From contig NZ_JAMBOL010000024.1 in assembly GCF_023715605.1 (NCBI RefSeq), positions 1-49,681 on the forward strand: a DNA stretch of 49,681 nucleotides, in the 5' to 3' direction. Position numbers and translations under genes: made by a program. Source of the DNA: Halalkalibacter oceani (GTDB lineage Bacteria; Bacillota; Bacilli; Bacillales; Bacillaceae_D). Within the stretch, counting starts at the first letter, position 1, and every line of letters starts with the position of its first letter. Positions 151 through 27,642 of the stretch are shown here, one piece after another. Below the pieces are notes generated by a model that saw only the letters and a program-made list of their open reading frames with translations, made no database searches and was not told the origin of the DNA.

Positions 151-954
151 ATGAAGAACAGGCTGGAAAAAAACCGGGTAAAGGAAACGATCAAGCGCGG
201 AGACGTGTCGTTTGGTTTTTATGTAGCTACACCGTCTCCTACTATTGTTGAGTTGGCCGGGGTAGCAGGGATGGAATGGGTGAGAATCGACTGGGCACAC
301 TCTGCTGTTGATCTGCCGATGATTGAGAATATGATCAGAGCAGCTGAAAATTATAACATGGCTCCCTTCGTCCGACTTAATCTCGATGAGCAAAAAATAT
401 CGAGTGTGTTGGAGTTAGGCGCATTAGGAATTATTGTACCTGATATTGAAACGGCAGGTGATGCCAGAATGATCGTCAATGCAGCCAAATTTTCGCCCGT
501 TGGGGAAAGAGGAATGTTTTCGGCGCCTAGAAAATCAGGCTATGGAGCGGTCGATGGTGCCAGTTTTAAAAAATGGACAAATGAAGAAGTGATGGTCGGT
601 ATTCAAATAGAAAATGTAAAAGCGATTGACCAGCTTGAGGATATTCTCGATGTTGACGGAATTGATATGGTGTTAAGCGGAAGAGGCGACCTTGCCAATG
701 CGTTAGGGGTCCCTGGTCAAAGGAATCATCCAGATGTCCTGAGAGTAGAAGAAGAAATTTTTCAAATCGCAAGAAAAAAAGGTAAGGTGATCTCTCCGCA
801 ACTTGACCCGACAGCGACAGACTTTCAGACAAAAATCACAGACTGGAAGGAAAGGGGAGCACAAGTGATTTCTTTTGGGCATGATTTGCCAATTATCAAG
901 CATGCACTGGAGCAAATCGTTCAACTTGCGCAGGCAGCAAAAGCGGTTCATTAA
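151..954 (+). CDS. HpcH/HpaI-family aldolase
   Basis: 267-residue single-domain TIM-barrel protein of the HpcH/HpaI aldolase/citrate lyase family, class II metal-dependent enzymes that cleave 4-hydroxy-2-oxo acids to pyruvate (or a keto acid) and an aldehyde. Visible family signatures are the early VRIDWAHS segment, the PFVRLN strand, GALGIIVPDIETA (metal/pyruvate region), FSPVGERGM, and a late DMVLSGRGDLANALG segment. Length is normal for the family. ATG at 151 follows an AAGGGGGG ribosome binding site at 137-143. It is monocistronic: a strong terminator follows. Its position beside a molybdoenzyme and hydrolase cluster suggests it cleaves a late keto-acid intermediate. The substrate is not readable from sequence. 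Confidence 0.88.
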   Translation: MKNRLEKNRVKETIKRGDVSFGFYVATPSPTIVELAGVAGMEWVRIDWAHSAVDLPMIENMIRAAENYNMAPFVRLNLDEQKISSVLELGALGIIVPDIETAGDARMIVNAAKFSPVGERGMFSAPRKSGYGAVDGASFKKWTNEEVMVGIQIENVKAIDQLEDILDVDGIDMVLSGRGDLANALGVPGQRNHPDVLRVEEEIFQIARKKGKVISPQLDPTATDFQTKITDWKERGAQVISFGHDLPIIKHALEQIVQLAQAAKAVH

Positions 955-976
955 CCGGCTCTCGCTTGCTTTTTCA

Positions 977-1020
977 GAGGTGTGCGAAAAGGAGAATAAT
1001 CCTTTTTGCACACCTCTTTC
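977..1020 (+). terminator. Rho-independent terminator of the aldolase gene
   Basis: GAGGTGTGC at 977-985 pairs with GCACACCTC at 1008-1016. The inner AAAAGGA/TCCTTTT extends the stem, the loop is GAATAA, and TTTC follows. Confidence 0.88.
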
Positions 1021-1114
1021 TGTTGTTCACTTCTCTAACTGATCGCTGAAAAACACTGTGAGATAACTTCACGAAAAGACAGAAAAAACAGACATTAAGA
1101 AATATATTAAGAAT

Positions 1115-1127
1115 ATATCAGTGATAT
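1115..1127. promoter_or_regulatory. Palindromic operator candidate for the GntR regulator
   Basis: ATATCA-G-TGATAT is a perfect 6-1-6 palindrome in the A+T-rich region before the ferredoxin operon. The same palindrome, with only the centre base changed, is at 4971-4983 before the GntR/FCD gene. The pair suggests that the regulator controls this operon and itself. Confidence 0.55.
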
Positions 1128-1130
1128 TCC

Positions 1131-1204
1131 ACTTGATCGGGGAAAGGGTGGACAAGACCCTGACGGCGGTTTACTGCATGAAGGATAACTTGATCGGGGA
1201 AAGG
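1131..1204. repeat. 17-bp direct repeat in the ferredoxin-operon leader
   Basis: ACTTGATCGGGGAAAGG occurs at 1131-1147 and again at 1188-1204, a 57-bp period, between the palindromic operator and the ribosome binding site of the ferredoxin gene. It could be a second activator site or part of a structured leader. I do not recognise it as a known riboswitch. Apart from the terminator and the palindrome, nothing else is seen in 955-1258. Confidence 0.6.
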
Positions 1205-1216
1205 TCCAGCCGTTGA

Positions 1217-1507
<291 letters not shown>

Positions 1508-1552
1508 AGCTGAACAGGTAACATAAAAACGACTTTCAATTGAGGTGAGAGG

Positions 1553-3274
1553 ATGTATTCAACAGATGTATTAGTAGTGGGGAGTGAGGCATCAGGGGCG
1601 CAGGCGGCGATTGCTGCTGCGGAGGCCGGTGCTTATGTAACCGTTGTGACAAAGGGCAAGGTCAATATGAGCGGGGCGACATTAACGGCCAGTGCTGATA
1701 TTAATGTCGACAGCAAGACGGCAAAGGAGCTTGGACTTCCGGGAGATAGTGGAGATTCGGAGGAGCAGTTTTTTACAGATACGGTGATCGGCGGAAAGTA
1801 TTTGAATAACCAAAAGCTTGTCGAGTCGATTGTCAGGAAGATTCCAACCGTGCTTAAAGGGTTGATGGATGATGGGCTGAAAGCGGAGAGCCTGATTCAT
1901 ACGCCGGGCCATGAGTATCCGCGCGGTGTGATCGTTAACGGCTTGAAGCTGACGAGGAAATTGGCACAGAAGATGCGAAAGCATGACAGGGTCACGATCA
2001 TGGAGCAAATTATGGTGCTTGAGATTTTGAAAAAGGACGGCAAAGCCTGTGGCATCTACGGCTATGATCTTGCGAATGGAATGTTTATCACCATTCGGGC
2101 GAAAGCGGTCGTCCTGGCGACAGGCGGGGGAATGGCAGCTTTTCCGATTCGCACCGCTCCGGACGAGCTGACAGGAGATGGCTACATGATGGCCTGGCGG
2201 GCTGGCGCTGAACTGATTGATATGGAGATGCCGCAGTTTATGCCGGGTGTCTTGATCAACCCTCCTGCCTGGCGTGGAAATCAGTTTATTTATGAAATAT
2301 CGTTCGGCAGCAAGCACGGCCTCGAAGGATGGCTGTTAAACAAATCGGGCATCCGCTTTATGAAAGATTGGGACCCTGAAAGGATGGAGAAAAGCACGCG
2401 CGACAAATTATCAATTGCGATTATGAATGAGGTCGTCGAAGGGCGGGGAACGCCGGACGGAGGCGTCTATTATTCAACCGCTCACCTGCCGAAAAATCTG
2501 ATACGCAGATTTGCGGACTGGTACCCGTTCGTAACGAGCGACTGGACGTATGAAAAGCTGAACTTTAACGATTTGATGGAGGAGCTGCTCCGCGACAATG
2601 CGGTTGAGATCGGTGTCGGCTGTCATTTCTTCATGGGCGGTATCCGCATTAATGTCGACGGTGAAACCTCAGTGCCCGGCTTGTATGGAGCAGGCGAAGC
2701 GACGGGCGGATTTAACGGAGCGAACCGGATTTCGGGGAATGCCTTAACTGAAACGTTGGTGCAGGGCGGCGTTTCCGGGGCGGCAGCGGCTGCTTATGCG
2801 AAAGAGCACGAATTACTGGAAATCGAGACGGCCCAATTGGACGCCCTTCATGAAAAGCAGCAAGCTTATTTGAAACGCCAGGACGGGATGAATCCTTATG
2901 AACTCCGGCAGGAATTGGCCAAGCTCTCATGGAACAACATCGGCGTTGTACGTACGACGGAAAACTTACAAAGCGTCATTAAAGAACTGCGGACGATCCG
3001 AGAGGAAAAGCTGCCTCAATTAGTGACGAAGGATAAAACGCTTCATTATAATCGCGAGCTGCTTGAATGCATGCAGCTGGAAAATGTCGTATCCCTGCTT
3101 GAAGCGATTGCGCTAAGCGCGCTTGAACGTAAGGAAAGCCGTGGAGCCCATTATTTGAAGGATATTCCGGAAAGCAGAGAGGATCAGCTAAAAAACATTA
3201 TCGTGCAAAACATCAATGGTGAAATGAAGATTAAGGACGTACCTCTTGTTGTGACAAGCATTCAACCTAACTAA
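1553..3274 (+). CDS. FAD-dependent fumarate reductase/SDH-like flavoprotein
   Basis: 573-residue flavoprotein of the succinate dehydrogenase/fumarate reductase/L-aspartate oxidase superfamily. The N-terminal FAD-binding strand reads VLVVGSEASGAQAA, so the second glycine of GxGxxG is replaced by Glu. ATGGG near residue 190, a HFFMGGI segment, GLYGAGEATGG and GANRISGNALTETLVQGG near residues 395-410 are family blocks of the FAD and active-site regions. The SdhA segment that carries the His for covalent FAD here reads NMSGATLTASAD, without His, so FAD is probably non-covalent. No membrane-anchor subunit lies nearby, which points to a soluble reductase or dehydrogenase working with the adjacent ferredoxins. 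GAGGTGAGAGG precedes the ATG. The substrate is unknown. Confidence 0.85.
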   Translation: MYSTDVLVVGSEASGAQAAIAAAEAGAYVTVVTKGKVNMSGATLTASADINVDSKTAKELGLPGDSGDSEEQFFTDTVIGGKYLNNQKLVESIVRKIPTVLKGLMDDGLKAESLIHTPGHEYPRGVIVNGLKLTRKLAQKMRKHDRVTIMEQIMVLEILKKDGKACGIYGYDLANGMFITIRAKAVVLATGGGMAAFPIRTAPDELTGDGYMMAWRAGAELIDMEMPQFMPGVLINPPAWRGNQFIYEISFGSKHGLEGWLLNKSGIRFMKDWDPERMEKSTRDKLSIAIMNEVVEGRGTPDGGVYYSTAHLPKNLIRRFADWYPFVTSDWTYEKLNFNDLMEELLRDNAVEIGVGCHFFMGGIRINVDGETSVPGLYGAGEATGGFNGANRISGNALTETLVQGGVSGAAAAAYAKEHELLEIETAQLDALHEKQQAYLKRQDGMNPYELRQELAKLSWNNIGVVRTTENLQSVIKELRTIREEKLPQLVTKDKTLHYNRELLECMQLENVVSLLEAIALSALERKESRGAHYLKDIPESREDQLKNIIVQNINGEMKIKDVPLVVTSIQPN

Positions 3275-3288
3275 GGGAGTGATCCAAC

Positions 3289-3600
3289 GTGAAAGAAATT
3301 ACAGTGTCCGTCCAAAGGCAACCGGCACCTGAGGCGGAAACCTACAATGAAACGTTTCAAGTTGAATTAAAAACAGGGATGAGCATATTAAATGTACTCG
3401 ATGAAATCAGTACGACATGTGACTCTTCTTTGGCTTATGAAGCTTCGTGCCGGAGAGGGATTTGTTCCGTCTGTATGGTCAACGTAAACGGAAAAATCGT
3501 CAAATCGTGTATGGAGCTGGCATCGGGTGATCTCGAACTGAAAAATGGCTCGAAGTTCCCAATAAAGGATCTCGCCTTTGGCTCAAAAAAACGAAAATAA
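3289..3600 (+). CDS. 2Fe-2S ferredoxin-like protein (SdhB N-terminal type)
   Basis: 103-residue plant-type ferredoxin fold matching the N-terminal domain of succinate dehydrogenase/fumarate reductase iron-sulfur subunits. The cluster loop is ASCRRGICSVCMV with a later Cys in KSCMEL. The C-terminal domain of SdhB, with its 3Fe/4Fe clusters, is absent; the separate 4Fe-4S ferredoxin at 1259 may supply that function. GTG start at 3289 with GGGAGTG eight bases upstream. It lies 14 nt after the flavoprotein and is almost certainly its redox partner. Confidence 0.85.
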   Translation: MKEITVSVQRQPAPEAETYNETFQVELKTGMSILNVLDEISTTCDSSLAYEASCRRGICSVCMVNVNGKIVKSCMELASGDLELKNGSKFPIKDLAFGSKKRK

Positions 3601-3625
3601 CCGGCTGGTGACTGGAGGAAGAAAG

Positions 3626-4804
3626 ATGACGAACATCAAGCAACAAATCGACGTGGAAGCATTGAAGGAACTGGCGCGCAAGCTCGTAAAACGACCGAGT
3701 CAGCAGACGGAGAAAATGGAATATGATCCTGAAATAAAGGGGTTTATCCGCGACTGTTTACTACCTGAACTAAAAGAGAGGGGCCTGACAAACGTCAAGC
3801 TGGATCAAATGGGAAATTTAATCTGCCGGATTGGCAGGCCGGATTCAGCCAAGAAGGTCCTGTTTTTAGGCTATGCGATGACGCATCCGGCTTCCTCGAT
3901 GAACGAGCCGTTTGCCGGACAAGTTGTGATCGAGGGTGGTCAGGAATATTTGCGCGGCAGAGGCGTTTCCGAGCAAAAGGGCGCATTGGCGGCAATGATT
4001 GCAGCAGCCGAGTACGTAAACAAAAATCTTGAGGAGCTGGACGGCGAGCTGATTTTCGCGGTCAGTCTGGCCGGAGAAACGGGTCGTCATGACGCGATTG
4101 ACAGCATTCGGAAGGAAATCGATTTAAAGGCGGATCTTGGCGTCGTCGGAATTGGAACGAACAGCGAGATTTGCCAGGGGAATAAAGGGCGGGTCGATAT
4201 TCTGGTGAATGTGTACGGGAAGTCATGCCACAGCAGCACGCCATCGCTTGGGGTGAACGCGATTGAAGGTGCGATGGAGGTCGTCGGCAAGCTAAGGGAG
4301 ATGCCGATTAAAGGGGAGCACCCGAAGCTTGGCAAAGCGACGTTAACATCGACATCGATCAAAAGTTTTCCTGACGCGACTCATACGATTCAAAATGAAT
4401 GTCGGCTCGTGTTCGACCGCCGTTTACTGCCGGGAGATGATGTTGCGGCAATTGTGGGAGAAGTAGAACAGACAATTGCCGGGCATGAACCTTACAAAGT
4501 TGATGTCGTCCAAGGGCCTGTCACATTCCCGTCTGAGGTCAATGACGATTCGATTGTTTACAAGCAGTTAAGCGCAGCAATTAAAGCTGTGACCAATGAG
4601 GAAGCGACAGCTTTTTACTCGAACAGTGCGATTGATGCCGGTTATTTAAATAAATGGGACATTCCGAGCGTCATGTTCGGCCCGGGGAAGATGGAGTATT
4701 GGCATACCGACAACGAAATATTAGGGGTGGAAGAGCTGTGGAACAGTGCTGGTATTTATGCGCAGCTCGCCTACAATCATTTACGAAAAAAGTCATCGGT
4801 GTAG
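3626..4804 (+). CDS. M20-fold (ArgE/DapE/YgeY-like) protein with altered metal site
   Basis: 392-residue member of the M20 peptidase/deacylase/ureidohydrolase fold. Recognisable blocks are GRGVSEQKGALAA (family consensus GRGxSDxKG), a dimerisation (lid) domain with SCHSSTPSLGVNAIE, and the C-terminal YWHTDNEILG (consensus HTxNE). The first metal motif, usually GHxDTVP, reads GYAMTHP near residues 82-88, so its His and Asp are Tyr and Met. The bridging Asp is Glu116. Activity as an ordinary di-zinc hydrolase is therefore uncertain. ATG at 3626 is chosen because GGAGG at 3614-3618 sits 7 nt before it; a longer reading frame opens at 3578 inside the previous gene. It may act on a ring-opened carbamoyl or amide intermediate, or be regulatory. 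Confidence 0.8.
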   Translation: MTNIKQQIDVEALKELARKLVKRPSQQTEKMEYDPEIKGFIRDCLLPELKERGLTNVKLDQMGNLICRIGRPDSAKKVLFLGYAMTHPASSMNEPFAGQVVIEGGQEYLRGRGVSEQKGALAAMIAAAEYVNKNLEELDGELIFAVSLAGETGRHDAIDSIRKEIDLKADLGVVGIGTNSEICQGNKGRVDILVNVYGKSCHSSTPSLGVNAIEGAMEVVGKLREMPIKGEHPKLGKATLTSTSIKSFPDATHTIQNECRLVFDRRLLPGDDVAAIVGEVEQTIAGHEPYKVDVVQGPVTFPSEVNDDSIVYKQLSAAIKAVTNEEATAFYSNSAIDAGYLNKWDIPSVMFGPGKMEYWHTDNEILGVEELWNSAGIYAQLAYNHLRKKSSV

Positions 4805-4970
4805 AAGAAGGCGATGGCGTTGAAAAGCTACCGATTTGAGTGAGAGGGGAGGGGACGAAACTGCTGATTTAAGGTAACGCCAAGCGCGAATAACATGTCA
4901 TCATTAAAAACCGTGGCAGATAATGTGACACGGAGCAACTTAAATCTCGAAACACTAGTATATTATGATT

Positions 4971-4983
4971 ATATCACTGATAT
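4971..4983. promoter_or_regulatory. Palindromic operator candidate before the GntR gene
   Basis: ATATCA-C-TGATAT, the same 6-1-6 palindrome found at 1115-1127, lies 88 nt before the regulator's start codon inside A+T-rich promoter-like DNA. It fits autoregulation by the GntR/FCD protein. I see no clear terminator in 4805-5071. Confidence 0.55.
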
Positions 4984-5071
4984 ATTGGTAGCTTTTGATA
5001 AAGTATCGCAATGTTTCAGGTGGCTATTTAAGGAGGCGAATAGAAAGAAAAGCAAAGGAGGGATGAATCGT

Positions 5072-5740
5072 ATGAAAATGGAAAGCGAAATTGGCAAGAA
5101 GCCCCGCTCGGAGCATATTTACAATGAAATACGCAATGCGATTTTATATGGGTATCCGGGATATTTACCCGGGACACTATTGAATGAAAATAAGCTGGCA
5201 GATTACTTTGGCGTTAGTAAAACACCGGCGCGGGAAGCATTGAACCGGCTACGGAATGAGAATCTTGTAGAAGTCATCCCGTATAAAGGATATCTCGTTT
5301 CGAATCCGACGATTCAGGATCTTGTTGAGCAGTTTCAAATGAGATTAATTCTGGAAACAGCCGCTGTTGAGTTGGCCGTGCAACATGTTTCGGCGGTTCA
5401 GATTGAAGAACTGCGTGAGTTGACAAAGGAAGACAAGGTCTATTTTGCGGATGATTTCCGCTTGAACTTTCGTAAAGTAAACCTCGAATTTCATACGAAG
5501 GTCGCTCAAACAAGTGGAAACAGCTTGTTAACGAATTCTGTCAGACAAGTACTGGAATTGATGCAGCGGGCCTTGTTTCATAATTTTACAGAAGACGAGA
5601 TGGAACTCCATCATCAAGAACACAGAGTGCTGATTCAAGCACTGGAAGAGCGGAACAAGGAGCTCGCCGTTAAAAGTATTCAGGAGCAGATTGAATTATC
5701 AAAGCAGAGGATTTTTAATTATCGCAATTATCAATCATAG
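5072..5740 (+). CDS. GntR-family (FadR/FCD) transcriptional regulator
   Basis: 222-residue regulator. The N-terminal winged helix reads IYNEIRNAILYG, then LNENKLADYFGVSKTPAREALNRLRNENLVEVIPYKGYLV, a standard GntR DNA-binding domain (about residues 10-80). An all-helical FCD ligand domain follows, with FHTKVAQTSGN and a late HHQEHRVLIQAL carrying typical metal/ligand histidines. ATG at 5072 is preferred over ATG at 5063 because AAAGGAGG ends at 5062, leaving no spacing for 5063. FCD regulators usually sense small carboxylates, which suits control of the adjacent TRAP transporter and catabolic genes. Paired palindromes at 1115 and 4971 are its likely sites. Confidence 0.88.
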   Translation: MKMESEIGKKPRSEHIYNEIRNAILYGYPGYLPGTLLNENKLADYFGVSKTPAREALNRLRNENLVEVIPYKGYLVSNPTIQDLVEQFQMRLILETAAVELAVQHVSAVQIEELRELTKEDKVYFADDFRLNFRKVNLEFHTKVAQTSGNSLLTNSVRQVLELMQRALFHNFTEDEMELHHQEHRVLIQALEERNKELAVKSIQEQIELSKQRIFNYRNYQS

Positions 5741-5815
5741 ATAAAGAGAATTGAGATTCGGGAGAATGTAGAAAGAACCTCTTAAACAACAAACACGTGA
5801 TGGAGGGGATTTTAC

Positions 5816-6877
5816 ATGAAAAAATTAGTTGTACTTTTAACGATGATGGTACTTTTTGCTTTGACTGCGTGTGGGTCAGGTTCTACCGATACGGGGGCCG
5901 AAAGTGGCGGTGCTGCAGGAGAAACAAGTTCAGAAGGGGCAAGTTCGGAGGAAACGTTCACGATTAAAATTGGTCATGTGCTGGATGAAAATTATCATTA
6001 TCAGGATGGGGCAAATCATTTTAAGGAACTTGTGGAAGAACGCTCTGACGGAAGGATCATTGTCGATGTTCATGCCAATTCAACATTAGGAAATGAGCGT
6101 GACATGCTTGAAGGGATGCAAATGGGCACGGTTGAAATGGGGATTATTTCTTCTGGGCCAATGGCTGGTTTTGTTCCGGAATTCGCCTTGCTTGATTTAG
6201 GATACTTATTTGATAGCAGCGAGATCGCTCAAGAGGTGTTAACAGGTCCAATTGGTGAGCAGCTTAATGAAAAAATGCTTGATGTTGGGATTCGTCGTTT
6301 GGCAACAATTGACGCCGGATTTAGAAATATTTATGCCAGCAAGCCGATTCAAACAGTTGAGGATCTGCAAGGATTAAAGATCCGTACACTTGAAACACCG
6401 GCTCACTTAGAATTATTTCAGGAATTAGGAGCAGCTCCGACACCAATGGCTTATTCAGAACTGTATACAGGGCTGCAGCAGGGTGTAGTCGATGCCGCTG
6501 AAAATGTGCCGGAAGCATTTTATAGCAGTCAGCATTTTGAAGTGTCCAAGGTATATTCTGAAACCCAGCATGTGTACTTAACGATGATGTATTTAATTAG
6601 CGAGGATTTTTATAATCAGCTGCCTGCTGACCTGCAGGAAATTGTGGCAGAAGCCGCTGCTGAAGCAGCTGAATATCATAATGGCGTGATTGCTGAGGTC
6701 AAAGCCGATATTTATCAGTCGTTGGAAGAAAGCGGCGTTGAAATTGTTCAGGTTGACGACTTGACACCATTTATTGAAGGAGCAAAAGCTTCATGGGTCA
6801 AGATTGCTGAATCCGTTCCAAATGGCGACGCATTGCTGGCTGATATTTTAGAGGCGACAGGAAACACATTAGAATAG
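5816..6877 (+). CDS. dctP: TRAP transporter solute-binding lipoprotein DctP
   Basis: 353-residue extracytoplasmic receptor of a tripartite ATP-independent periplasmic-type transporter. It starts with a lipoprotein signal (MKKLVVLLTMMVLFALTAC, lipobox LTAC, lipidated Cys near residue 19) and a Gly/Ser/Glu linker. Family blocks follow: IKIGHVLDENYHYQDGANHFKEL, VHANSTLGNERDMLEGMQMG, and LQGLKIRTLETPAHLELFQELGAAPTPMAYSELYTGLQQGVVDAAEN, which contains the conserved Arg that salt-bridges ligand carboxylates. TRAP receptors of this type bind carboxylic acids, so the imported compound is probably an acid. dctQ and dctM follow. Confidence 0.93.
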   Translation: MKKLVVLLTMMVLFALTACGSGSTDTGAESGGAAGETSSEGASSEETFTIKIGHVLDENYHYQDGANHFKELVEERSDGRIIVDVHANSTLGNERDMLEGMQMGTVEMGIISSGPMAGFVPEFALLDLGYLFDSSEIAQEVLTGPIGEQLNEKMLDVGIRRLATIDAGFRNIYASKPIQTVEDLQGLKIRTLETPAHLELFQELGAAPTPMAYSELYTGLQQGVVDAAENVPEAFYSSQHFEVSKVYSETQHVYLTMMYLISEDFYNQLPADLQEIVAEAAAEAAEYHNGVIAEVKADIYQSLEESGVEIVQVDDLTPFIEGAKASWVKIAESVPNGDALLADILEATGNTLE

Positions 6878-6915
6878 GAGATCCTGGAAAAGGGACAGGG
6901 GAAAAGAGCTTCAAA

Positions 6916-6956
6916 GCAGCAGGGGAAGTCTGTTACACAGGAAGAACTGCTGCTGC
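6916..6956 (+). terminator. Possible attenuating hairpin between dctP and dctQ
   Basis: GCAGCAG at 6916-6922 can pair with CTGCTGC at 6947-6953, followed by a T-rich stretch. A weak stop here would give more receptor than permease, which is common in TRAP operons. The stem is short and the loop long, so this is tentative. Confidence 0.3.
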
Positions 6957-7022
6957 CTGTTTCTTCTTGATTAAGGGCTTTTGCAACTGCCTTTCCGTGA
7001 TCCTCCGAAAAAGAGGTGGCAT

Positions 7023-7511
7023 ATGATCGTCCGTATAAAAAGCGTCTATGATCGAGTCATAGATAGCATTGCTATCCTATTGCTTGTTGTTCTTACCTAC
7101 GTTTCATTTCACCAAGTCATTACAAGATTCATTTTTTCCAATCCTCCTGCTTGGACAGAGGAGCTATCAAGATATTTGTTTGTTTGGGTTACCTTTCTCG
7201 GCGTGGCGATTGCCTTTCGTGTAGGGGCTCATTTAGGAGTTGACTATTTTGTCGGTTTATTGCCGAAAAAAGGCAGTCAGCTTCTTTTACTAATAGCGAG
7301 TATTTTCTTAATCGTGACACTTGCTGTCATTGGATACCAGGGATTTACTGCCAGTCAGGTTGTCAAAAGCCAGCTGTCACCCGTTTTGCGAGTACCGATG
7401 ATTTATCCGTATTTAGCGATTCCGGTCGGGATGGTGCTGAGTATTATAGAAGTTTTATGGAACCTTTTCTATAAAGCTCCGCGGAAAGGGATGAGCCCTG
7501 ATGGGAATTGA
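7023..7511 (+). CDS. dctQ: TRAP transporter small permease DctQ
   Basis: 162-residue integral membrane protein with four predicted helices, at about residues 12-35, 45-70, 85-105 and 125-150. The signature NPPAWTEELSRYLFVWVTFLG lies between helices 1 and 2, as is usual for DctQ. ATG at 7023 follows AGAGGTGG. An upstream in-frame TTG at 6981 lacks a ribosome binding site and would add a polar leader. Its last 11 bases overlap dctM, indicating coupled translation. Confidence 0.9.
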   Translation: MIVRIKSVYDRVIDSIAILLLVVLTYVSFHQVITRFIFSNPPAWTEELSRYLFVWVTFLGVAIAFRVGAHLGVDYFVGLLPKKGSQLLLLIASIFLIVTLAVIGYQGFTASQVVKSQLSPVLRVPMIYPYLAIPVGMVLSIIEVLWNLFYKAPRKGMSPDGN

Positions 7512-8787: not shown

Positions 8788-8836
8788 ACCGGACTTCAAA
8801 GAAAAAACGAAAAAGACAACTGGGGGAGAGTATAAC

Positions 8837-10303
8837 ATGAAAACATTAATTGAACATGCGATGATTGTCACGATGAATGACTCACGTGAGGTTATCAAAC
8901 AAGGTTATCTGCTTGTGGAACAAGACCGCATTAAAGAAATCGGCGCAGGAATGTATCAAGGTAACAGGGATGGAGTGGAAATCGTCAATGGGGATAACAA
9001 CATCATCATTCCAGGTTTAATCAACGCCCATACCCATTCCTACGCCAACCTGGTAAAGGGCACGACGGAAAACATTCCGCTTGAGCTGTGGATGCTCTAT
9101 ATTATGGCCGAAGGGAAAAATATGACGAAAGAGGATTATGCGATCAATGCCGCTCTTGGCAGTATAGAGATGCTCAAGAGCGGGACGACAACCTTCCTCG
9201 ATCATCTTGCGCAGGATACTGACGGGATGAAAACAGTTGCTGCTGAATATAAAAAGGCGGGAATTCGCGCTGTTCTGACGCCAATGTTTGGCGACCGGGC
9301 GTATGCCGACAGCTTGCCGGAAGCCCTTCAGATCGAGCTTGGGAAGGAGCCTCATGGACCGAAGGCAGTCGGTTCAGGCTGGCAGGATAATATCGCGATG
9401 GTCGAAAGCGTCATTCAAAACGTATCCGAGCCGGACAAGGGCATTACGGTTGCCGTTGGACCTTCGGGGCCGCAGCGCTGCAGTGATGAACTGCTCGTCG
9501 CCTCGATGGAATTAGCGCAAAAATATGAGCTGCCGTGGCATACGCATCTGCTTGAAACGAAGGCCCAGGAAGTGACAGGCTATGAGCGCTACGGTCATTC
9601 AATGGTGGAGCATCTTGAAAAGCTCGGCATTTTGAATGAGTCGGTCTCTTTTGCCCACGGCGTCTGGGTCAGTGACACCGATATTGAGCTGATCGCCAAG
9701 CGAGGATCGACGATCGTCCACAATCCGACGAGTAATTTATTGCTCGGAAGTGGAGTGCTGCCCCTTATTCCACTCAAGGAGGCCGGCGTCCATATCGGCA
9801 TCGGCACGGATGGAGCGAACTGCTGCGGCTATCAATCGATGTTTGAATCAATGAAACTGGCGGCGATTCTCTCCAATACGTTCACTCCTGACTACAAGCG
9901 TTGGGTGAAGGCGGTTGATGTGCTTGAGATGGCGACGATCGGCAGTGCAAGAGCGGTCGGAATGTCTGACGAAATCGGTTCACTCGAAGCGGGTAAGAAA
10001 GCTGACTTCGTTCTATTAAATAAAGAGGTGAGCAACTTCGCTCCATTAAATGATTTAATTTGGCAGCTCGTATACGGACGGGCCGATATGGCGATCGACG
10101 CCGTTTACGTAAACGGCAAAAAGGTGGTCAGCGAACGGAAAGCGGTCGGCGTTGATGAAAAAGCGATCTTCAACAAAGCGATCGAAAATGGGGCCGACCT
10201 GCTACAGCGAAATCAAACTGAATTTGAAAAGATTAAAAACAAGGCACCTGACATCTATCATATGCTGATGAAGGTTGCTGAAATCCCAACAAAGCAAGCA
10301 TAA
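8837..10303 (+). CDS. TRZ/ATZ-family metal-dependent amidohydrolase
   Basis: 488-residue amidohydrolase-superfamily enzyme of the TRZ/ATZ/guanine-deaminase-like group (also SsnA and 5'-deoxyadenosine deaminase relatives). Metal and catalytic residues are visible: H65 and H67 in NAHTHSYANL, H235/H237 in PWHTHLLE, H274 in FAHGVW and D325 in GIGTDGAN. The N- and C-terminal segments form the usual beta-sandwich (VTMND, IIIPGLINAH, and GSLEAGKKADFVLLN late). These enzymes deaminate or dechlorinate heterocycles, or hydrolyse ring amides. It sits between the TRAP transporter and the molybdoenzyme maturation genes, consistent with heterocycle ring chemistry. RBS GGGGGAGAG precedes the ATG. Confidence 0.88.
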   Translation: MKTLIEHAMIVTMNDSREVIKQGYLLVEQDRIKEIGAGMYQGNRDGVEIVNGDNNIIIPGLINAHTHSYANLVKGTTENIPLELWMLYIMAEGKNMTKEDYAINAALGSIEMLKSGTTTFLDHLAQDTDGMKTVAAEYKKAGIRAVLTPMFGDRAYADSLPEALQIELGKEPHGPKAVGSGWQDNIAMVESVIQNVSEPDKGITVAVGPSGPQRCSDELLVASMELAQKYELPWHTHLLETKAQEVTGYERYGHSMVEHLEKLGILNESVSFAHGVWVSDTDIELIAKRGSTIVHNPTSNLLLGSGVLPLIPLKEAGVHIGIGTDGANCCGYQSMFESMKLAAILSNTFTPDYKRWVKAVDVLEMATIGSARAVGMSDEIGSLEAGKKADFVLLNKEVSNFAPLNDLIWQLVYGRADMAIDAVYVNGKKVVSERKAVGVDEKAIFNKAIENGADLLQRNQTEFEKIKNKAPDIYHMLMKVAEIPTKQA

Positions 10304-10314
10304 AAGGTGATCGT

Positions 10315-11127
10315 ATGGACATTTATCGTAAGCTGGCAGAAGCAATAGAACGGAAGGAAGGCGTGTCTCTTGTTACTATTATCGAGATTGCATCAGCAGA
10401 AGAGAGGCATCGTGAGCTGATCGGAAGGAAGCTGCTCGTTTGGATGAACGGTCAAACAGAAAGTGAATTTCCTCTTTTAGCGGAAGTGAAAACAGCCGTC
10501 TTACAATGTGTCAATGAAGCCTTTGCAAAGCGAAAATCAAAAACATATGTGATTGAAACGCGAGAGATGAGAATGGAATGCTATGTTGACGTTTTTCTCC
10601 CTCCGCTTCGTCTGATTATCGCCGGTGCCGGTCATGTGGCGGTGCCGATTGTCGAGATTGCCAAGCTTGTCGGCTTCGATGTCACCGTGATTGATGACCG
10701 GGCGGAGTATGCGATGAAAGAGAATTTTCCGGCGGCTGATGAAGTGATCTGTCAGCCTTTTCTCGACTTTTTTGCCGAGGCAAAGACGGACAAATCGACG
10801 TATGTGCTGCTTGTGACGCGCGGACATAAGCATGATGTAATGATCCTGCCGAGTCTGTTTGACAAGGAAGTCGCCTATATCGGGATGATTGGCAGCAAAA
10901 GAAGGATATCAGGCGTTTTTTCACAGTTGAAGCAGGAATATCCGAACGCTGATTTTGATCGGATTTATGCGCCGATTGGGCTTGATATTGGTGCCCAGAC
11001 TCCGGAAGAAATCGCCGTCAGCATCATTGGAGAAGTTCTGAAGGTCAAAAATGAGAAATCAGGTATTTCACTACGTGAGAAAATTCCTTACTTTATTGCC
11101 AGAGAGGAAGAGGAACAACATGAATGA
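10315..11127 (+). CDS. XdhC-type molybdoenzyme maturation factor (Rossmann part)
   Basis: 270-residue XdhC/CoxI-family protein, needed to insert sulfurated molybdenum cofactor into xanthine-dehydrogenase-type enzymes. The C-terminal two thirds is the NAD(P)-binding-like XdhC domain: LRLIIAGAGHVAVPIVEIAKLVGFDVTVIDDR (about residues 98-130), TYVLLVTRGHKHD, AYIGMIGSKRR and IYAPIGLDIGAQTPEEIAVSI. The N-terminal part corresponds only loosely to the CoxI domain. A cleaner copy of that domain is encoded as a separate protein right after it. Its stop overlaps the next start by 8 nt. Confidence 0.88.
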   Translation: MDIYRKLAEAIERKEGVSLVTIIEIASAEERHRELIGRKLLVWMNGQTESEFPLLAEVKTAVLQCVNEAFAKRKSKTYVIETREMRMECYVDVFLPPLRLIIAGAGHVAVPIVEIAKLVGFDVTVIDDRAEYAMKENFPAADEVICQPFLDFFAEAKTDKSTYVLLVTRGHKHDVMILPSLFDKEVAYIGMIGSKRRISGVFSQLKQEYPNADFDRIYAPIGLDIGAQTPEEIAVSIIGEVLKVKNEKSGISLREKIPYFIAREEEEQHE

Positions 11128-11440
11128 GCTTGGTTTTATTCAGCAGATTATGACATTACAGGATACGAATGAGCGAGCGGCGTTGGCGACCGTTATTCGG
11201 ACGAAAGGCTCGACCCCACGAAAGGTCGGAGCGAAAATGCTGATTTTTCGCAATGGCAGCATTTCCGGTACGATTGGTGGCGGCTGTGGCGAAGGTGAAG
11301 TAATTGAGAAGGGGCTGGAAGTGATCGAAAGCGGAAGTCCGGTGAGGCACAAAGTCGATTTAACGAAAGGGCTTTTCTATGAGGATGGCGGGATTTGCGG
11401 CGGCATTCAGGAAATTTTTATCGAAGCGATCGGACGGTAA
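11120..11440 (+). CDS. XdhC/CoxI N-terminal-domain protein
   Basis: 106-residue stand-alone CoxI/XdhC N-terminal domain. It reads ALATVIRTKGSTPRKVGAKMLIF, then GTIGGGCGEGEVIEKGLEVI, the conserved CoxI block with the Cys in GGGCGEGEV. It lacks the Rossmann domain of full-length XdhC, which the overlapping preceding gene supplies. The ATG at 11120 fits the AGAGGAAGAGGAAC site; an upstream frame opening at 11051 lies in the previous gene. The two proteins probably act together on the adjacent molybdoenzyme. Confidence 0.82.
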   Translation: MNELGFIQQIMTLQDTNERAALATVIRTKGSTPRKVGAKMLIFRNGSISGTIGGGCGEGEVIEKGLEVIESGSPVRHKVDLTKGLFYEDGGICGGIQEIFIEAIGR

Positions 11441-11446
11441 GGCAAA

Positions 11447-12052
11447 ATGAATTCGGCTATTTTATTAGCTGCCGGACAATCCTCGCGGATGGGAAGCCTG
11501 AAGGCGCTGCTTCCATGGGGCGGCCGCACGTTACTGGAGAAGCAGCTGGACGAGCTGGTTCAATCAACGATTGATGAAGTCGTGGTGGTGCTTGGCTTTC
11601 AGGCCGATTTGCTAAAGCCGCTGATACTGGAAGCGACAAGAGACTTCGCAACGAAGCTGACCATTAAAATCAGGATCAATCGACATTATGAAGCAGGAAA
11701 AACAAGCTCGATCCGGCTTGGGATGAAGCATTTGGCAAAGGCAAGCGACAATGTCCTCATCATCGGTGTTGATCAGCCTGTGCGGGCAGTCACAATTAAT
11801 ACGTTGTTAAGCTCGCGGGCTGAGCTTGCGATTCCGGTCTATCAAGGGAGAAAAGGCCACCCCCCTCTTTTTGCCTCCTCCCTGTACAAGAAGCTTGAGG
11901 CGATCACTGAGGAAACGGAGGGGCTTCGTGCCGTGATCCGCCATCATCCGGGCTGTCAGCTTATTGAGGTCGGACAGCCTCAAATTTTGCTTAATTTAAA
12001 CGAACAGTCGCAGTATGAACAAGCCATCGCCCGACAGCTGGATGGCTACTAA
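11447..12052 (+). CDS. Molybdenum cofactor nucleotidyltransferase (MocA/PucB-like)
   Basis: 201-residue NTP-transferase. The N-terminal nucleotide-binding loop is LLAAGQSSRMGSLKALLPWGGRTLLE. GVDQP supplies the metal-binding Asp, and GRKGHPPLF is the MocA-family active-site segment. MocA attaches CMP to molybdopterin, giving the MCD cofactor form used by many three-subunit molybdenum hydroxylases; PucB is the Bacillus relative in purine catabolism. The location directly before the enzyme's subunits supports a dedicated maturation role. Confidence 0.88.
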   Translation: MNSAILLAAGQSSRMGSLKALLPWGGRTLLEKQLDELVQSTIDEVVVVLGFQADLLKPLILEATRDFATKLTIKIRINRHYEAGKTSSIRLGMKHLAKASDNVLIIGVDQPVRAVTINTLLSSRAELAIPVYQGRKGHPPLFASSLYKKLEAITEETEGLRAVIRHHPGCQLIEVGQPQILLNLNEQSQYEQAIARQLDGY

Positions 12053-12069
12053 TCAGGAGGAGATCACAC

Positions 12070-12942
12070 GTGTTTATCAACGAGATTGAATATCATAACC
12101 CGACAAGCGTCGATGCACTTTTAGCCTGTCTTGACCAATATGGGGAGGATGGCAAGCTGTTGGCGGGAGGGACGGATTTAATTTTGCAAATGAAATTCAA
12201 GCGCTGGTCCCAGCAGCACATTATTAATGTCAAGAGCATACCTGAATTAAAAAAAATCGAAACATCCGATTCTTATTTGGAGATCGGCTGTAACACCACG
12301 TTAAGTGAGCTGCTTGATCATGATGGCGTGAAAAGCTTATATCCGGCTTTATGGCAGGCAATTTATGAGCTGGCTGACCGCCAAATTCGCAACCGCGGAA
12401 CCTTGGTTGGAAATGTGTGCAACGCTTCTCCAGCTGCAGATGCAAATACGGCGCTGCTTATTTATCATTCGGAGGTGCATATTCAGTCTTCCGCGGACTC
12501 AAAGATCGTGCCGATTTCTGAATTTTGGCTCGGTCCAAGTAAGACGATTCTTAAGCCGAATGAATTTGTTCGCGCCATTAGGCTGCCACTTCCGGGAGAA
12601 CGGGCCTTTTCTAGCTTTCAAAAGCTAGGGAGAACGTATGACGATATTGCGATTATTAACGCTGCGGTTAGTGTGGAGCTGGATGAAGCAGGTCAATGTA
12701 CTGGAGCGCGAATTGCGATGGGGGCGGTTGGACCGACAACGCTCCAGGCACCGCTGGCGTCAGCTCACCTTCTCGGCAAGCGCTTAGACAAGACGGTGAT
12801 AGAGGAAGCGGCCAAGATGGCCAGCGACGAGGCAAGTCCGATTACAGACGTGCGAGCTAGTGCCACTTATCGGAGAAAAATGGTCAGCGTTTTAGTCGCC
12901 CGGGCGTTACACGACATCGTGCTTCGATCAGAAGAAAACTAA
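12070..12942 (+). CDS. Molybdenum hydroxylase FAD-binding subunit (CoxM/XdhB type)
   Basis: 290-residue medium subunit of a xanthine-dehydrogenase-family enzyme. FAD-binding blocks are LLAGGTDLILQMKF (about residues 35-48) and IRNRGTLVGNVCNASPAADANTALLIY (about residues 111-137); a CO-dehydrogenase-type C-terminal domain follows with SFQKLGRTYDDIAIINAAV. It passes electrons from the iron-sulfur subunit to the final acceptor. GTG start at 12070 lies behind AGGAGGAG. It is first in the order FAD, 2Fe-2S, Mo. Confidence 0.92.
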   Translation: MFINEIEYHNPTSVDALLACLDQYGEDGKLLAGGTDLILQMKFKRWSQQHIINVKSIPELKKIETSDSYLEIGCNTTLSELLDHDGVKSLYPALWQAIYELADRQIRNRGTLVGNVCNASPAADANTALLIYHSEVHIQSSADSKIVPISEFWLGPSKTILKPNEFVRAIRLPLPGERAFSSFQKLGRTYDDIAIINAAVSVELDEAGQCTGARIAMGAVGPTTLQAPLASAHLLGKRLDKTVIEEAAKMASDEASPITDVRASATYRRKMVSVLVARALHDIVLRSEEN

Positions 12943-12958
12943 TGAGAGAGTGATCATA

Positions 12959-13429
12959 ATGAAGGATATGAAAGTGAATGGAGAGTTCTATGAGCTGGCT
13001 GCTCCAGCGAACCGGACCTTGCTTGAATACGTAAGAAGGGATTTGCAGCTGACCGGTGGAAAAGAAAGCTGCGGTACCGGCGATTGCGGAAGCTGCTCGA
13101 TGCTTGTTGATGGTGAGGTCGTCAAGTCCTGCCTCGTTTTGGCGGCCGAGTGTGAAAACAGTGAGATTACGACGGTGGAAGGATTGGCGTCAGAAGGGGC
13201 ATTGCATCCGATTCAGGAAGCATTCGTCAAGCATTGGGGGACGCAATGCGGCTATTGCACACCGGGATTTGTCATGGCGACAAAGGCATTACTTGACCGT
13301 AATCCAAATCCGACTGAAGAAGAAATCAAGCATGAAACTGCAGGGAATTTATGCCGCTGTACGGGGTATGTAAAAATTATTGATGCCGTCAAGGAAGCTG
13401 CAGCCGTGCTACAGGAAAAGAGGGGTTAG
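12959..13429 (+). CDS. Molybdenum hydroxylase 2x[2Fe-2S] subunit (CoxS/XdhC type)
   Basis: 156-residue small subunit. The N-terminal plant-type [2Fe-2S] domain has ESCGTGDCGSCSML with a further Cys in VKSCLVL. The C-terminal four-helix [2Fe-2S] domain has CGYCTPGFVM and NLCRCTGYVKI. All eight cluster cysteines are present. ATG at 12959 is preferred over an in-frame GTG at 12950 because the GAGAG site is correctly spaced for the ATG. It carries electrons between the molybdenum site and FAD. Confidence 0.92.
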   Translation: MKDMKVNGEFYELAAPANRTLLEYVRRDLQLTGGKESCGTGDCGSCSMLVDGEVVKSCLVLAAECENSEITTVEGLASEGALHPIQEAFVKHWGTQCGYCTPGFVMATKALLDRNPNPTEEEIKHETAGNLCRCTGYVKIIDAVKEAAAVLQEKRG

Positions 13430-13430
13430 C

Positions 13431-15740
13431 ATGAAAAACGAGCCATTACAAGCGGAGAAGCATTGGCTGATCGGAAAGTCCGAACCGAAGATTGACGGGT
13501 ACCAGAAAGTGACCGGTGACTTGCGCTATATTGATGATACGGTGCTGCCGGGGATGCTCTATGGGGCGATTTTACGAAGTCCGCACAGTCACGCGCGCAT
13601 TCGCAAAATCGATACGGGCAAGGCGGAAGCATTAAAAGGCGTTCGCGCTGTCATTACGGCTGCTGATACGGAAAAGGTCAAGTTCAGCTTCAGACCGGAA
13701 CAGGCAGACAACCTCGTGCTTTGTGATGAGTATGTGCGCTTTATCGGCGACGAAGTGGCGGCTGTTGCGGCCGAGACACCGGAAATTGCCGAACAGGCGC
13801 TTGAATTGATCGAAGTCGACTATGAAATGCTGCCGGCGGTGTATCACTATCAGGATGCCTTGAAGGAAGAGAGCGCTCGTGTTCATCAGGAAGCAGACAG
13901 CAATATTGCTCATGAGATGCATACGGAATATGGGGATGTGGAGGCGGCATTTGCCAAGGCCGCTTATATTTATGAGGATCATTTTGAGACGTCGAAGCAG
14001 GCGCATTGCTGCCTGGAAACAAGAGCGTGTATCGCTGAATTCGATCAGTCCGGCCGGTTAACGGTTCGCTCGCAAACACAGACTCCCCATACTTTGAGGA
14101 AGGAACTGGCGATGGTGCTTAATTTGCCGATCTCGCAAGTAAGAGTGATTCGGATGCCGGTAGGCGGCGGGTTTGGCAACCGGCTTGTGATGGATATGAA
14201 GGAGCCGATTGCTGCATTTTTGGCGAAAAAGACGAAAAAGCCTGTACGGATTTCGAATTCCCGGCAGGAGGAATTTATGACGGCACGGCCGCGCTACCCG
14301 TATCAGATTACATTGAAAACCGCGGTTACGAAAGAAGGGGAAATCATCGCCCGTCATTGCACGGCAACGGTCGATAACGGGGCTTATAATGATAAGGGAC
14401 CAAATACGATGAGCTATTGTGAAAACGTGAATTCCTGCTTTTATCGAGTGCCAAATACGAAGTTTGACGGCTATATCGCCTATACGAACAATCAATATTG
14501 TACAGGGTTTCGCGGCTTCGGCAATCCGCAAATCACGTTTGCGATTGAATCACAAATGGATTTGATTGCTGATCGCTTAGGCATCGATCCCGCTCGCTTT
14601 AGACTGCTGAATGCCCATTCACGCGATGAAGTAACGAGCAGCGGGAAGATCATTGATACGGAATCAATGAGGGACACGCTGGAGGTGGCGATGGAAAAGG
14701 CGCGATGGCAGGAAAAGCGCGAGCTGTACGCAAAGCAGCCGGAGAATGCGACGAAGCGGCGGGGAATCGGTCTTGCCTGCATGCTGCAATCAGGAGGCGG
14801 CAGCCGCGGTTACGGCTTCAACTCGACGGAGGCCTTCGTGAAGATTTCAGAGGAAGGCCAGGTGACGATTATTACACCGGCGGTTGAAATCGGCCAGGGG
14901 CCGCAGACGGCGATGGCGCAAATTGCCGGCGAAGTGCTCGGAGTACCATCGCGCTCCATCCACATCATCGATCATGATACGGATATTATTCCGTTTGATT
15001 TAGGGACATGGGGCAGCCGGACAACCTTTGTCAACGGCATCGCCGTCCAGGAAGCGGCTGAACAGGCAAGAAACGAATTATTGGAGCTTGCCGGTAAGAT
15101 GTTCGCTCTTCCTCCGGCTGATCTCATCTGCCGTGATGGAAAAATTGGCCCCGCCGATCAATGGGAGAAGGCGGTTGACTTCGCCGAGGTGACAAGATAC
15201 GCCGCCTATACGGAAGGAAGGACGGTTTCCGGAAAAGGACGCTTCTTTGATCCGGAGGCGCCGAAATTCAAACGCGGGGAAGGCTCACATAACTTTCCGA
15301 ATCTCGTTTACGGCTGTCAGATTGCCGAGGTGGAGGTCGATGTCGAAACCGGACAGGTGAAGGTCCTGAACATTGTCGCCGCTCATGATGTCGGTAAGGC
15401 GATCAATCCAAAAGCGGTTGAGGGTCAATTAGAAGGCGGTATTATTCAAGGCGTCGGTTACGCCCTGACAGAGGGTGTCGTTGAACAAGAGGGAAGAAAC
15501 CGTAATCCGAGCTTTTTGGATTATAAAATTTTATCCAGCTCAGACATCCCGGAAATGGAGATCATCATTGTTGAGGATTTGGAAAATAAGGGGCCGTTTA
15601 AGGCGAAAGGCGTCGGCGAGCAGGGAATCGTCCCAACCGCTCCGGCCATTGCCAATGCGATTTCCAACGCGATTGGCGCCCGCATCTATGATTTACCGAT
15701 GAAACCGGAAAAAATCCTGTCCGCACTCGGACAGCTATAA
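13431..15740 (+). CDS. Molybdenum hydroxylase large (Mo-binding) subunit
   Basis: 769-residue catalytic subunit of the xanthine dehydrogenase/CO dehydrogenase large-subunit family. It begins IGKSEPKIDGYQKVTGDLRYIDD, the usual hammerhead-domain start. Molybdopterin-binding landmarks include MPVGGGFGNR near residue 245, TGFRGFGNPQ near residue 360 (FRGFG as in xanthine dehydrogenase, not the CoxL AYRCSFR active-site loop) and KGVGEQGIVPTAPAIANAI near the C-terminus, whose Glu is the catalytic base. It therefore probably hydroxylates an N-heterocycle or aldehyde rather than CO. The start at 13431 follows AAAGAGGGG; a longer frame lies inside the small-subunit gene. The substrate cannot be told from sequence; purines, nicotinate-like acids and others all use this fold. 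Confidence 0.92.
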   Translation: MKNEPLQAEKHWLIGKSEPKIDGYQKVTGDLRYIDDTVLPGMLYGAILRSPHSHARIRKIDTGKAEALKGVRAVITAADTEKVKFSFRPEQADNLVLCDEYVRFIGDEVAAVAAETPEIAEQALELIEVDYEMLPAVYHYQDALKEESARVHQEADSNIAHEMHTEYGDVEAAFAKAAYIYEDHFETSKQAHCCLETRACIAEFDQSGRLTVRSQTQTPHTLRKELAMVLNLPISQVRVIRMPVGGGFGNRLVMDMKEPIAAFLAKKTKKPVRISNSRQEEFMTARPRYPYQITLKTAVTKEGEIIARHCTATVDNGAYNDKGPNTMSYCENVNSCFYRVPNTKFDGYIAYTNNQYCTGFRGFGNPQITFAIESQMDLIADRLGIDPARFRLLNAHSRDEVTSSGKIIDTESMRDTLEVAMEKARWQEKRELYAKQPENATKRRGIGLACMLQSGGGSRGYGFNSTEAFVKISEEGQVTIITPAVEIGQGPQTAMAQIAGEVLGVPSRSIHIIDHDTDIIPFDLGTWGSRTTFVNGIAVQEAAEQARNELLELAGKMFALPPADLICRDGKIGPADQWEKAVDFAEVTRYAAYTEGRTVSGKGRFFDPEAPKFKRGEGSHNFPNLVYGCQIAEVEVDVETGQVKVLNIVAAHDVGKAINPKAVEGQLEGGIIQGVGYALTEGVVEQEGRNRNPSFLDYKILSSSDIPEMEIIIVEDLENKGPFKAKGVGEQGIVPTAPAIANAISNAIGARIYDLPMKPEKILSALGQL

Positions 15741-21298: not shown

Positions 21299-21322
21299 AA
21301 ATGAACAAGGAGCTGATCGAAT

Positions 21323-21616: not shown

Positions 21617-21636
21617 ATCAGTAGCATAACGAGCAC

Positions 21637-21680
21637 AAAGAGCGCTGACAATCATCACTTGTTTTTGCGCTCTTTCTTTG
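21637..21680 (+). terminator. Attenuator after yukE
   Basis: AAAGAGCGC at 21637-21645 pairs with GCGCTCTTT at 21667-21675, a perfect 9-bp stem, followed by CTTTG. Partial read-through would keep yukE expression above that of the downstream machine genes. Confidence 0.7.
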
Positions 21681-21687
21681 TTTAGAG

Positions 21688-21936: not shown

Positions 21937-21967
21937 CATTAACTGGACAAAGGGGTCACCTGAAAGA

Positions 21968-23161: not shown

Positions 23162-23172
23162 GAGTGGAGAAG

Positions 23173-27624: not shown

Positions 27625-27642
27625 TTAGGAAAGAAGGGCAAA

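Follow-up and report, generated by a model that had tools for sequence, protein, structure and literature searches.

A conserved gene cluster of Halalkalibacter oceani proposed to import an N-heterocyclic carboxylate and degrade it reductively

Contig NZ_JAMBOL010000024.1 of Halalkalibacter oceani (49,681 nucleotides, analysed as a whole and termed the window) carries at positions 1259-15740 what comparison with relatives indicates is a genuine, rare and conserved operon. This core encodes a ferredoxin, an SdhA-like flavoprotein with a [2Fe-2S] partner, an M20-fold protein, a GntR-FCD regulator, a TRAP importer, a TRZ/ATZ-type amidohydrolase and a three-subunit xanthine-dehydrogenase-type (Xdh-type) molybdenum (Mo) hydroxylase with XdhC and MocA (Table 1). 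We propose a catabolic role for the operon, namely the import of an N-heterocyclic carboxylate and its reductive degradation, a reading to which we assign a probability of about one half. The gene content, the conservation of the unit, a change of reductase type between lineages, the loss of metal-site residues in the M20 protein and a remodelled fumarate site are read directly from sequence. All gene families that a preliminary description had named in 151-15740 are present there, with the refinements that the 4Fe-4S ferredoxin has a small gene of its own and that XdhC is split in two. The window is one whole contig (C41) of a 4.47-Mb assembly in 124 contigs, and the DNA upstream of position 151 could not be read in place. 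Coordinates are window positions, all genes of 151-15740 lie on the + strand, and domains and family models were assigned with Pfam and NCBIfam, respectively.

We infer the order of reactions, every reaction and the substrate class as follows. The TRAP system would import an N-heterocyclic acid, to which the Mo-hydroxylase, matured by XdhC and MocA, would add a ring oxo group next to nitrogen. The SdhA-like flavoprotein and its 2Fe-2S partner would then reduce a ring C=C bond and end aromaticity, with electrons presumably delivered by the 4Fe-4S ferredoxin and, in the strain H. oceani P106, also by an adjacent NADPH:ferredoxin-reductase-like protein. The TRZ/ATZ amidohydrolase may open the ring, and the M20-fold protein may act with or just after the reductase, unlikely by two-metal hydrolysis. 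As substrate we favour, with much less confidence than the general mechanism, an acid of the pyrimidine-4- or pyridine-4-carboxylate type (such as orotate or 2-hydroxyisonicotinate) with a ring-embedded fumarate unit composed of the carboxylate, the C=C bond and the ring carbonyl. This unit is suggested because SdhA-like and dihydroorotate-dehydrogenase-like enzymes occupy the same place in related clusters, an exchange that provides a concrete prediction on substrate shape. More tentative, and on balance doubtful, is the specific proposal of an undescribed dearomatization of such a heterocycle by a ferredoxin-driven SdhA-type flavoprotein that is interchangeable with a divergent PyrD/PyrK pair and has the M20 protein, devoid of its canonical metal site, as dedicated partner with a new, non-metallohydrolase chemistry. 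We know of no fumarate-reductase scaffold used for N-heterocycle reduction. If our general reading is correct, bacilli would possess an additional reductive route for N-heterocycles, with a related form on mobilizable plasmids of marine roseobacters.

The flavoprotein is rare: at 1e-100 it occurs in 1 of 397 genomes of the order (the window genome itself), neither of the congeners G002 and G388 carries it, and among 151 genomes searched around Ammoniphilus only Ammoniphilus has it. A genome-contig scan, which detects close relatives only, gave 17 pattern matches with two relatives, H. oceani P106 and Ammoniphilus sp. YIM 78166 (Paenibacillaceae at NCBI). The P106 locus has the same gene order plus one gene (identities of 97% for the flavoprotein, 100% for the M20 protein and 92.7% for the ferredoxin). 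Ammoniphilus keeps the core as one run at lower identity (flavoprotein 74%, Fer2_3 protein 57%, M20 61%, DctP 62%, DctQ 50%, DctM 70%, TRZ 64%, MocA 47%, Xdh subunits 54/65/72%), including both XdhC halves; an extra TRAP set follows the M20 gene and the FCD gene (47%) has moved ahead of the flavoprotein gene. No match to the ferredoxin was found among the open reading frames (ORFs) called in Ammoniphilus. In all relatives' loci, ORFs were called mechanically and overlapping ones dropped, so that absence means no match among called ORFs, and, where no family model is cited, most neighbouring genes were identified by visual inspection of their sequences. Because one run is kept in Ammoniphilus, the flavoprotein and molybdoenzyme halves do travel together. 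The preliminary description would have been refuted had the two never co-occurred in relatives; the linkage is kept in both high-identity relatives.

Intergenic distances from the ferredoxin to the Mo subunit range from -23 to +103 bp (FCD frame counted from 4895), and 304 bp separate the ferredoxin from the upstream HpcH/HpaI aldolase gene. This aldolase, previously counted as part of the pathway, is better regarded as a neighbour from a separate upstream transcription unit outside the core, because a terminator-like hairpin closes its unit, a LysR/RraA/Ldh2/HpcH run (the first three named by eye) ends with it in H. oceani P106, and no ORF called over 18 kb upstream of the Ammoniphilus cluster matches it. 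Another contig of the window genome begins with the matching Ldh2 gene (93%; C59:124-1206, minus strand), and the same order is therefore likely there too. The additional P106 gene, between HpcH and ferredoxin, encodes a 344-aa pyridine-nucleotide reductase that scores 175 bits with a thioredoxin-reductase model (cut-off 343); as its sequence has no CxxC pair, we read it as a putative ferredoxin-NADP reductase (FNR-like). The window lacks this gene, with ~1 kb less DNA and ~67 bp of unrelated DNA in its place. Around this unrelated stretch lies a direct repeat of 17 bp, at 1131 and 1188 (1131-1204).

The flavoprotein shares its family and catalytic-region motifs with TfrA and SdhA/FrdA, and its partner resembles the N-terminus of TfrB/SdhB. 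Its best NCBIfam model is the thiol:fumarate reductase TfrA, at 374.8 bits against a cut-off of 718. Compared with E. coli FrdA, the motifs TRD, GCHFFMGG (with its H) and GANR are kept, but QYHPTG, whose HPTG motif belongs to the dicarboxylate site, is replaced by QFMPGV. From this pattern, C=C reduction beside a carboxylate is plausible, with fumarate itself an unlikely substrate. The 103-aa 2Fe-2S partner consists of Fer2_3 only and has no SdhB-like C-terminal Fe-S domain. With the HPTG motif gone and no full SdhB, the pair falls outside fumarate reductase/succinate dehydrogenase, and we rejected a plain fumarate reductase on the QFMPGV replacement. A structure model of the flavoprotein (predicted local distance difference test score, pLDDT, 36) was not used.

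Homologues of the flavoprotein occur at 1e-80 in 18 of 398 genomes of a phylum sample (20 places, its own included), with a Fer2_3 match in 16 of the 19 short loci around non-own homologues; for 15 of these 19 the reading extended over 5.5 to 19.5 kb, and for the other four it covered the short locus. The window genome itself has six further paralogues (seven match places), five of them read widely. Two of these lie in clusters, L028 (G000:C91:73000-92500; G000 denotes the window genome) and L029 (G000:C36:81000-100500), together with an NMT1-type ABC importer, UbiD, PxpA, Fer2_3, XdhB, XdhS and XdhL; L028 additionally has PxpB/PxpC, XdhC, MocA and UbiX. UbiD and PxpA of L028 were assigned by family models, the other genes of both clusters by similarity or by eye. 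The L029 ferredoxin is 72% identical to that of the window. In the distant Bacillota genome G508 (L044), Xdh genes accompany an SdhA-like FAD/Fe-S pair and a creatininase-family protein; PucR-like and TRAP genes, identified by eye, are close by. What recurs in these loci is a combination of hydroxylase, SdhA-like reductase and cyclic-amide-type hydrolase: the SdhA-like pair adjoins Xdh and lactamase-type genes in these three other loci, although most homologues do not. L028 and L029 perhaps represent another undescribed heteroaromatic-acid route via a lactam; their flavoprotein type occurs in 2 of 130 order genomes (twice in G000, once in G008).

In other lineages, the SdhA-like pair beside the M20 gene is replaced by a dihydroorotate-dehydrogenase-like PyrD/PyrK pair, as would be expected if the SdhA-like pair performs the ring-reducing step. 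In the genome G753, a cluster with M20 (61%), TRZ (41%), PyrK2 and PyrD2 (62% to Roseivivax) also contains an aldehyde ferredoxin oxidoreductase and TRAP genes (50/46/60%); it adjoins a set made up of PucR, carbamoylase, dihydroorotase, PyrK1 and PyrD1. G726 has M20, PyrK2, PyrD2, TRAP and other cyclic amidohydrolases. On Roseivivax/Roseovarius plasmids (L066, L067), one strand carries an M20d amidohydrolase, asparaginase, Xdh subunits and TRAP, and the other M20, GntR, PyrK, PyrD, CoxG, SagB-type and Glu-dehydrogenase genes. This Xdh/TRAP/M20/PyrD-PyrK cassette on mobilizable plasmids is nearly the same in the two genera (M20 99%). The NS[IV]G motif of PyrD1 contains Asn, and that of PyrD2, the M20 partner, Ser instead (3/3 each); because of this change, PyrD2 probably reduces a compound like, but not identical to, orotate.

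A second PyrD-containing block follows XdhL by ~20 bp (mechanical start) in Ammoniphilus, comprising PucR, an allantoate/carbamoyl amidohydrolase, PyrK and PyrD. The PyrK1/PyrD1 set of G753, which includes a dihydroorotase in addition, is a block of the same kind and likewise abuts the core. The corresponding block of the window genome lies on contig C36 with a TRAP set (PyrK 64% and PyrD 67% to Ammoniphilus). This region (L110 5035-14377, G000:C36), with TRAP, PucR, carbamoylase, PyrK, PyrD and a ring hydrolase, could encode a reductive route for orotate or a cyclic ureide. Its ring hydrolase passes the cut-offs of both allantoinase (385 vs 358) and the dihydroorotase family (359 vs 279). We initially supposed that this block simply completes the pathway by way of orotate, and retain the idea as no more than a link, as the hydrolase class is ambiguous and PyrD2 differs from PyrD1.

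By its Peptidase_M20 and M20_dimer domains, the M20 protein belongs to the M20 fold and shares much of its sequence frame with metallohydrolases such as DapE, YgeY and CPG2. Foldseek gave DapE (3ic1) as best fold (E 2.9e-15) for a model of moderate quality (pLDDT 57, template modelling score ~0.4, root-mean-square deviation 13.6). The nearest NCBIfam model is YgeY, at 168.3 bits against a cut-off of 321, with 24% identity to the E. coli protein. Unlike in DapE, the positions of H67, D69, D100, E134 and E163 are occupied in the subfamily by Y, M, E, G and I/L, with E135 and H349 kept where the C-terminus is present. This was read for the window, G753, G726 and G534 in one residue table (G534 without the last column) and for Ammoniphilus and Roseivivax in a separate alignment; G415 is absent from the table and has the same motifs by eye. 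All 10 weaker M20 homologues of the table have the canonical metal/base set. In DapE, H67, D100, E134, E135, E163 and H349 are the two-metal ligands and general base, a set that is incomplete in the M20 protein. Because most of these residues are changed, textbook two-metal M20 hydrolysis is unlikely, and the protein may instead work with one metal, without metal or as a partner. It is not an ordinary YgeY-type metallohydrolase, a reading that we rejected on the changed metal residues.

This subfamily spans seven lineages in two phyla, of which G726 and G534 share a genus and are not fully independent. An M20 profile run at 1e-40 over 398 phylum genomes matched 13, with G000, G753, G726, G534 and G415 at 730 to 371 bits and the rest at ≤156 bits. 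No member beyond the latter four emerged among relatives of G753 (199 genomes) and G726 (199), and a viral-contig scan with the profile gave 30 pattern matches and no relative. A tblastn search of plasmids returned 40% homologues on three mobilizable Roseivivax/Roseovarius plasmids, two of which were read; six further plasmid matches lie below 30%. In five of the seven lineages, the M20 gene lies beside an SdhA-like or PyrD/PyrK reductase pair or one gene from it (two in THAF30, with an insertion sequence element). The survey reveals a conserved M20-fold subfamily that is unlikely to use the textbook metal mechanism.

The three subunits (FAD, two [2Fe-2S] clusters, Mo cofactor) with XdhC and MocA, the latter by similarity only, place the hydroxylase in the Xdh-type family. 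The best solved relative of its Mo subunit is the alpha subunit of 4-hydroxybenzoyl-CoA reductase, but the HcrA model score of 650.4 bits lies below the cut-off (994.55). Two ORFs make up XdhC, the C-terminal half preceding the N-terminal one (10315-11440), and Ammoniphilus shows the same split. The TRZ protein scores 188.3 and 169.7 bits with the SsnA models (cut-offs 444 and 455.5) and falls outside them; E. coli SsnA shares 24% identity with it and scores slightly below GuaD. Its relatives on plasmids comprise 42 records at 35-37% among the matches listed. The DctP, DctQ and DctM domains and a TIGR00787 score above cut-off identify the importer as TRAP. DctP identity is 62% to Ammoniphilus and 50% to G753, compared with 34% to Roseivivax and 32-36% to three own-genome paralogues; DctM identity is 70% and 60% to Ammoniphilus and G753. 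TRAP similarity thus supports a ligand common to the window, Ammoniphilus and G753, but gives no such support for Roseivivax or G726.

Several observations weigh against the proposed role in N-heterocycle breakdown. Among the 15 widely read non-own flavoprotein regions, Xdh genes occur in only one (G508). Outside Bacilli, the closest homologues (43-48%, at places amounting to nine genomes) lie beside genes of other types, including threonine-synthase-like, M24-like and NhaC-like ones (by eye), and a homologue on an archaeal plasmid has no Xdh alongside. The UbiD/Pxp clusters may act on chemically different acids, and in G008 (L117) the flavoprotein/Fer2_3 pair stands beside PxpA/B/C without Xdh or UbiD. 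The Roseivivax cluster has no TRZ match and an Xdh Mo subunit of only 28% identity; the 20 kb read in G753 contain no called ORF that matches Xdh. G534, whose M20 copy is incomplete, and G415 have no reductase near M20 in the stretch read, and the M20 protein may be inactive or regulatory. TRZ-family enzymes deaminate more often than they open rings, and the one plasmid TRZ homologue examined (36%, Ensifer) has nucleoside-type neighbours. Roseivivax DctP (34%) and G726 DctM (39%) are no closer than own-genome paralogues.

As an alternative to ring hydroxylation, the Mo/W enzyme could be a downstream aldehyde oxidase, the ring being first reduced and opened to release an aldehyde acid. The comparable G753 cluster has an aldehyde ferredoxin oxidoreductase instead of Xdh, and the Mo/W step may therefore be aldehyde oxidation, which also counts against our proposal. 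The Mo subunit of the window is, however, nearest to the 4-hydroxybenzoyl-CoA reductase and XdhA models and not to aldehyde oxidases, all below cut-off, and we consider the aldehyde-oxidase explanation unlikely.

In the reductive nicotinate pathway of Eubacterium barkeri and Azorhizobium, Xdh-type hydroxylation yields 6-hydroxynicotinate, an Fe-S flavoprotein reduces it to tetrahydro-6-oxonicotinate, and an amidohydrolase hydrolyses the cyclic amide. The three enzyme classes and their order are the same as proposed here, and nicotinate dehydrogenase (3hrd) is among the solved relatives of the Mo subunit. Against a nicotinate-type route, the Mo subunit is a single chain as opposed to two in 3hrd, the M20 protein would have no use, and no 2-hydroxymethylglutarate-type enzyme is seen among the annotated core genes. 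No NCBIfam match named 6-hydroxynicotinate reductase or enamidase appears in the best 25 for the flavoprotein and TRZ proteins, with no direct comparison made. PMC3511419 describes an Azorhizobium-type nicotinate gene cluster and a TRZ/ATZ enzyme that makes 6-hydroxynicotinate from 6-chloronicotinate, which we count in favour of this route. Taken together, we regard a nicotinate-type substrate as rather unlikely.

The cluster could also consist of two adjacent operons with unrelated substrates, ferredoxin-to-M20 and TRAP-to-Xdh, that are neighbours by chance. The FCD gene stands between the halves, 90 bp after M20 (~270 bp with the FCD start near 5075) and 75 bp before DctP, and flavoprotein-Fer2_3 pairs are widespread without Xdh. 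Ammoniphilus nevertheless keeps the halves joined, most proteins being 47-74% identical, despite the inserted TRAP set and the moved FCD gene; in two lineages that lack the flavoprotein pair, M20 and TRAP are accompanied by Xdh (Roseivivax) or TRZ (G753). We consider chance adjacency quite improbable.

A TRAP importer is unexpected for a purine. The other close known system is the reductive uric acid (yanthine) pathway of E. coli and C. difficile (XdhD, YgfK, SsnA and YgeY classes), which, as described in PMC12507026, matches the window class by class, with an Xdh-type enzyme, a flavoprotein ring reductase (there too of two types, YgfK or DHO_dh-type UacX), a TRZ/ATZ-like amidohydrolase and an M20 protein in one cluster. 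According to the same paper, YgfK gave product in detectable amounts only together with SsnA. Here, by contrast, the reductase is SdhA-like, with no YgfK or DHO_dh-type UacX domain among the proteins of 1259-15740. A purine-acting variant is accordingly very improbable, since TRZ and M20, although the latter has YgeY as nearest model, fall short of the SsnA and YgeY cut-offs, the YgeY metal residues are lost and no HyuA, YgeW/UacY or YgeX is found among the core genes, and with all three membership tests (SsnA, YgfK/UacX, YgeY) negative, we rejected urate-pathway membership.

Reductive breakdown of an N-heterocyclic carboxylate is thus our best reading: the core would be a variant of reductive N-heterocycle catabolism, like the reductive urate and pyrimidine routes but with other enzymes. 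The analogy with the reductive nicotinate, pyrimidine and purine routes is borne out for the enzyme classes. In the open-licence literature, judged by titles and abstract starts, we found no paper on this gene combination. Ectoine, homarine/trigonelline and isonicotinate routes were also considered; on the last two, nothing usable was found there either.

Table 1. Features of the core operon and of the upstream aldolase unit (window positions).
Feature	Position	Strand	Basis
HpcH_HpaI aldolase	151-954	+	Pfam family
Intrinsic-terminator-like hairpin, 18-pair stem, closing the HpcH unit	976-1017	+	Consensus match
Single-cluster 4Fe-4S ferredoxin, presumed electron donor to flavoprotein	1259-1507	+	Pfam Fer4_13, 65.2 bits
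SdhA/TfrA-like FAD protein, presumed ring C=C reductase	1553-3274	+	FAD_binding_2 + Succ_DH_flav_C (Pfam), NCBIfam
[2Fe-2S] protein corresponding to N-terminal domain of SdhB/TfrB, 103 aa	3289-3600	+	Fer2_3, 64.4 bits
M20-fold protein, divergent subfamily; likely start 3626	3578-4804	+	Peptidase_M20
GntR-FCD regulator; likely start near 5075	4895-5740	+	Pfam; start from 221-aa H. oceani P106 copy
TRAP solute-binding protein DctP	5816-6877	+	TIGR00787, 239.8 bits (cut-off 175.05)
TRAP small permease DctQ	6981-7511	+	Pfam
TRAP large permease DctM	7501-8787	+	Pfam
TRZ/ATZ-type amidohydrolase, presumed ring hydrolase or deaminase	8837-10303	+	Amidohydro_1, NCBIfam
XdhC C-terminal (Rossmann) half	10315-11127	+	PF13478, 145 bits
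XdhC N-terminal (CoxI) half, separate downstream ORF; frame open from 11051	11120-11440	+	PF02625, 87.6 bits
MocA-like molybdenum cofactor cytidylyltransferase (NTP transferase)	11447-12052	+	MocA model, 125.8 bits (cut-off 186.45)
Mo-hydroxylase FAD subunit	12070-12942	+	PF00941, PF03450
Mo-hydroxylase [2Fe-2S] subunit	12950-13429	+	PF00111, PF01799
Mo-hydroxylase Mo-cofactor subunit; frame open from 13380	13431-15740	+	PF01315, PF02738, PF20256

Elsewhere in the window, positions 21300-33200 contain what looks, by eye, like a type VII (Yuk/Ess) secretion locus, and the low-GC part at 37500-49557 carries a repeat array and CRISPR-Cas-like genes (by eye).

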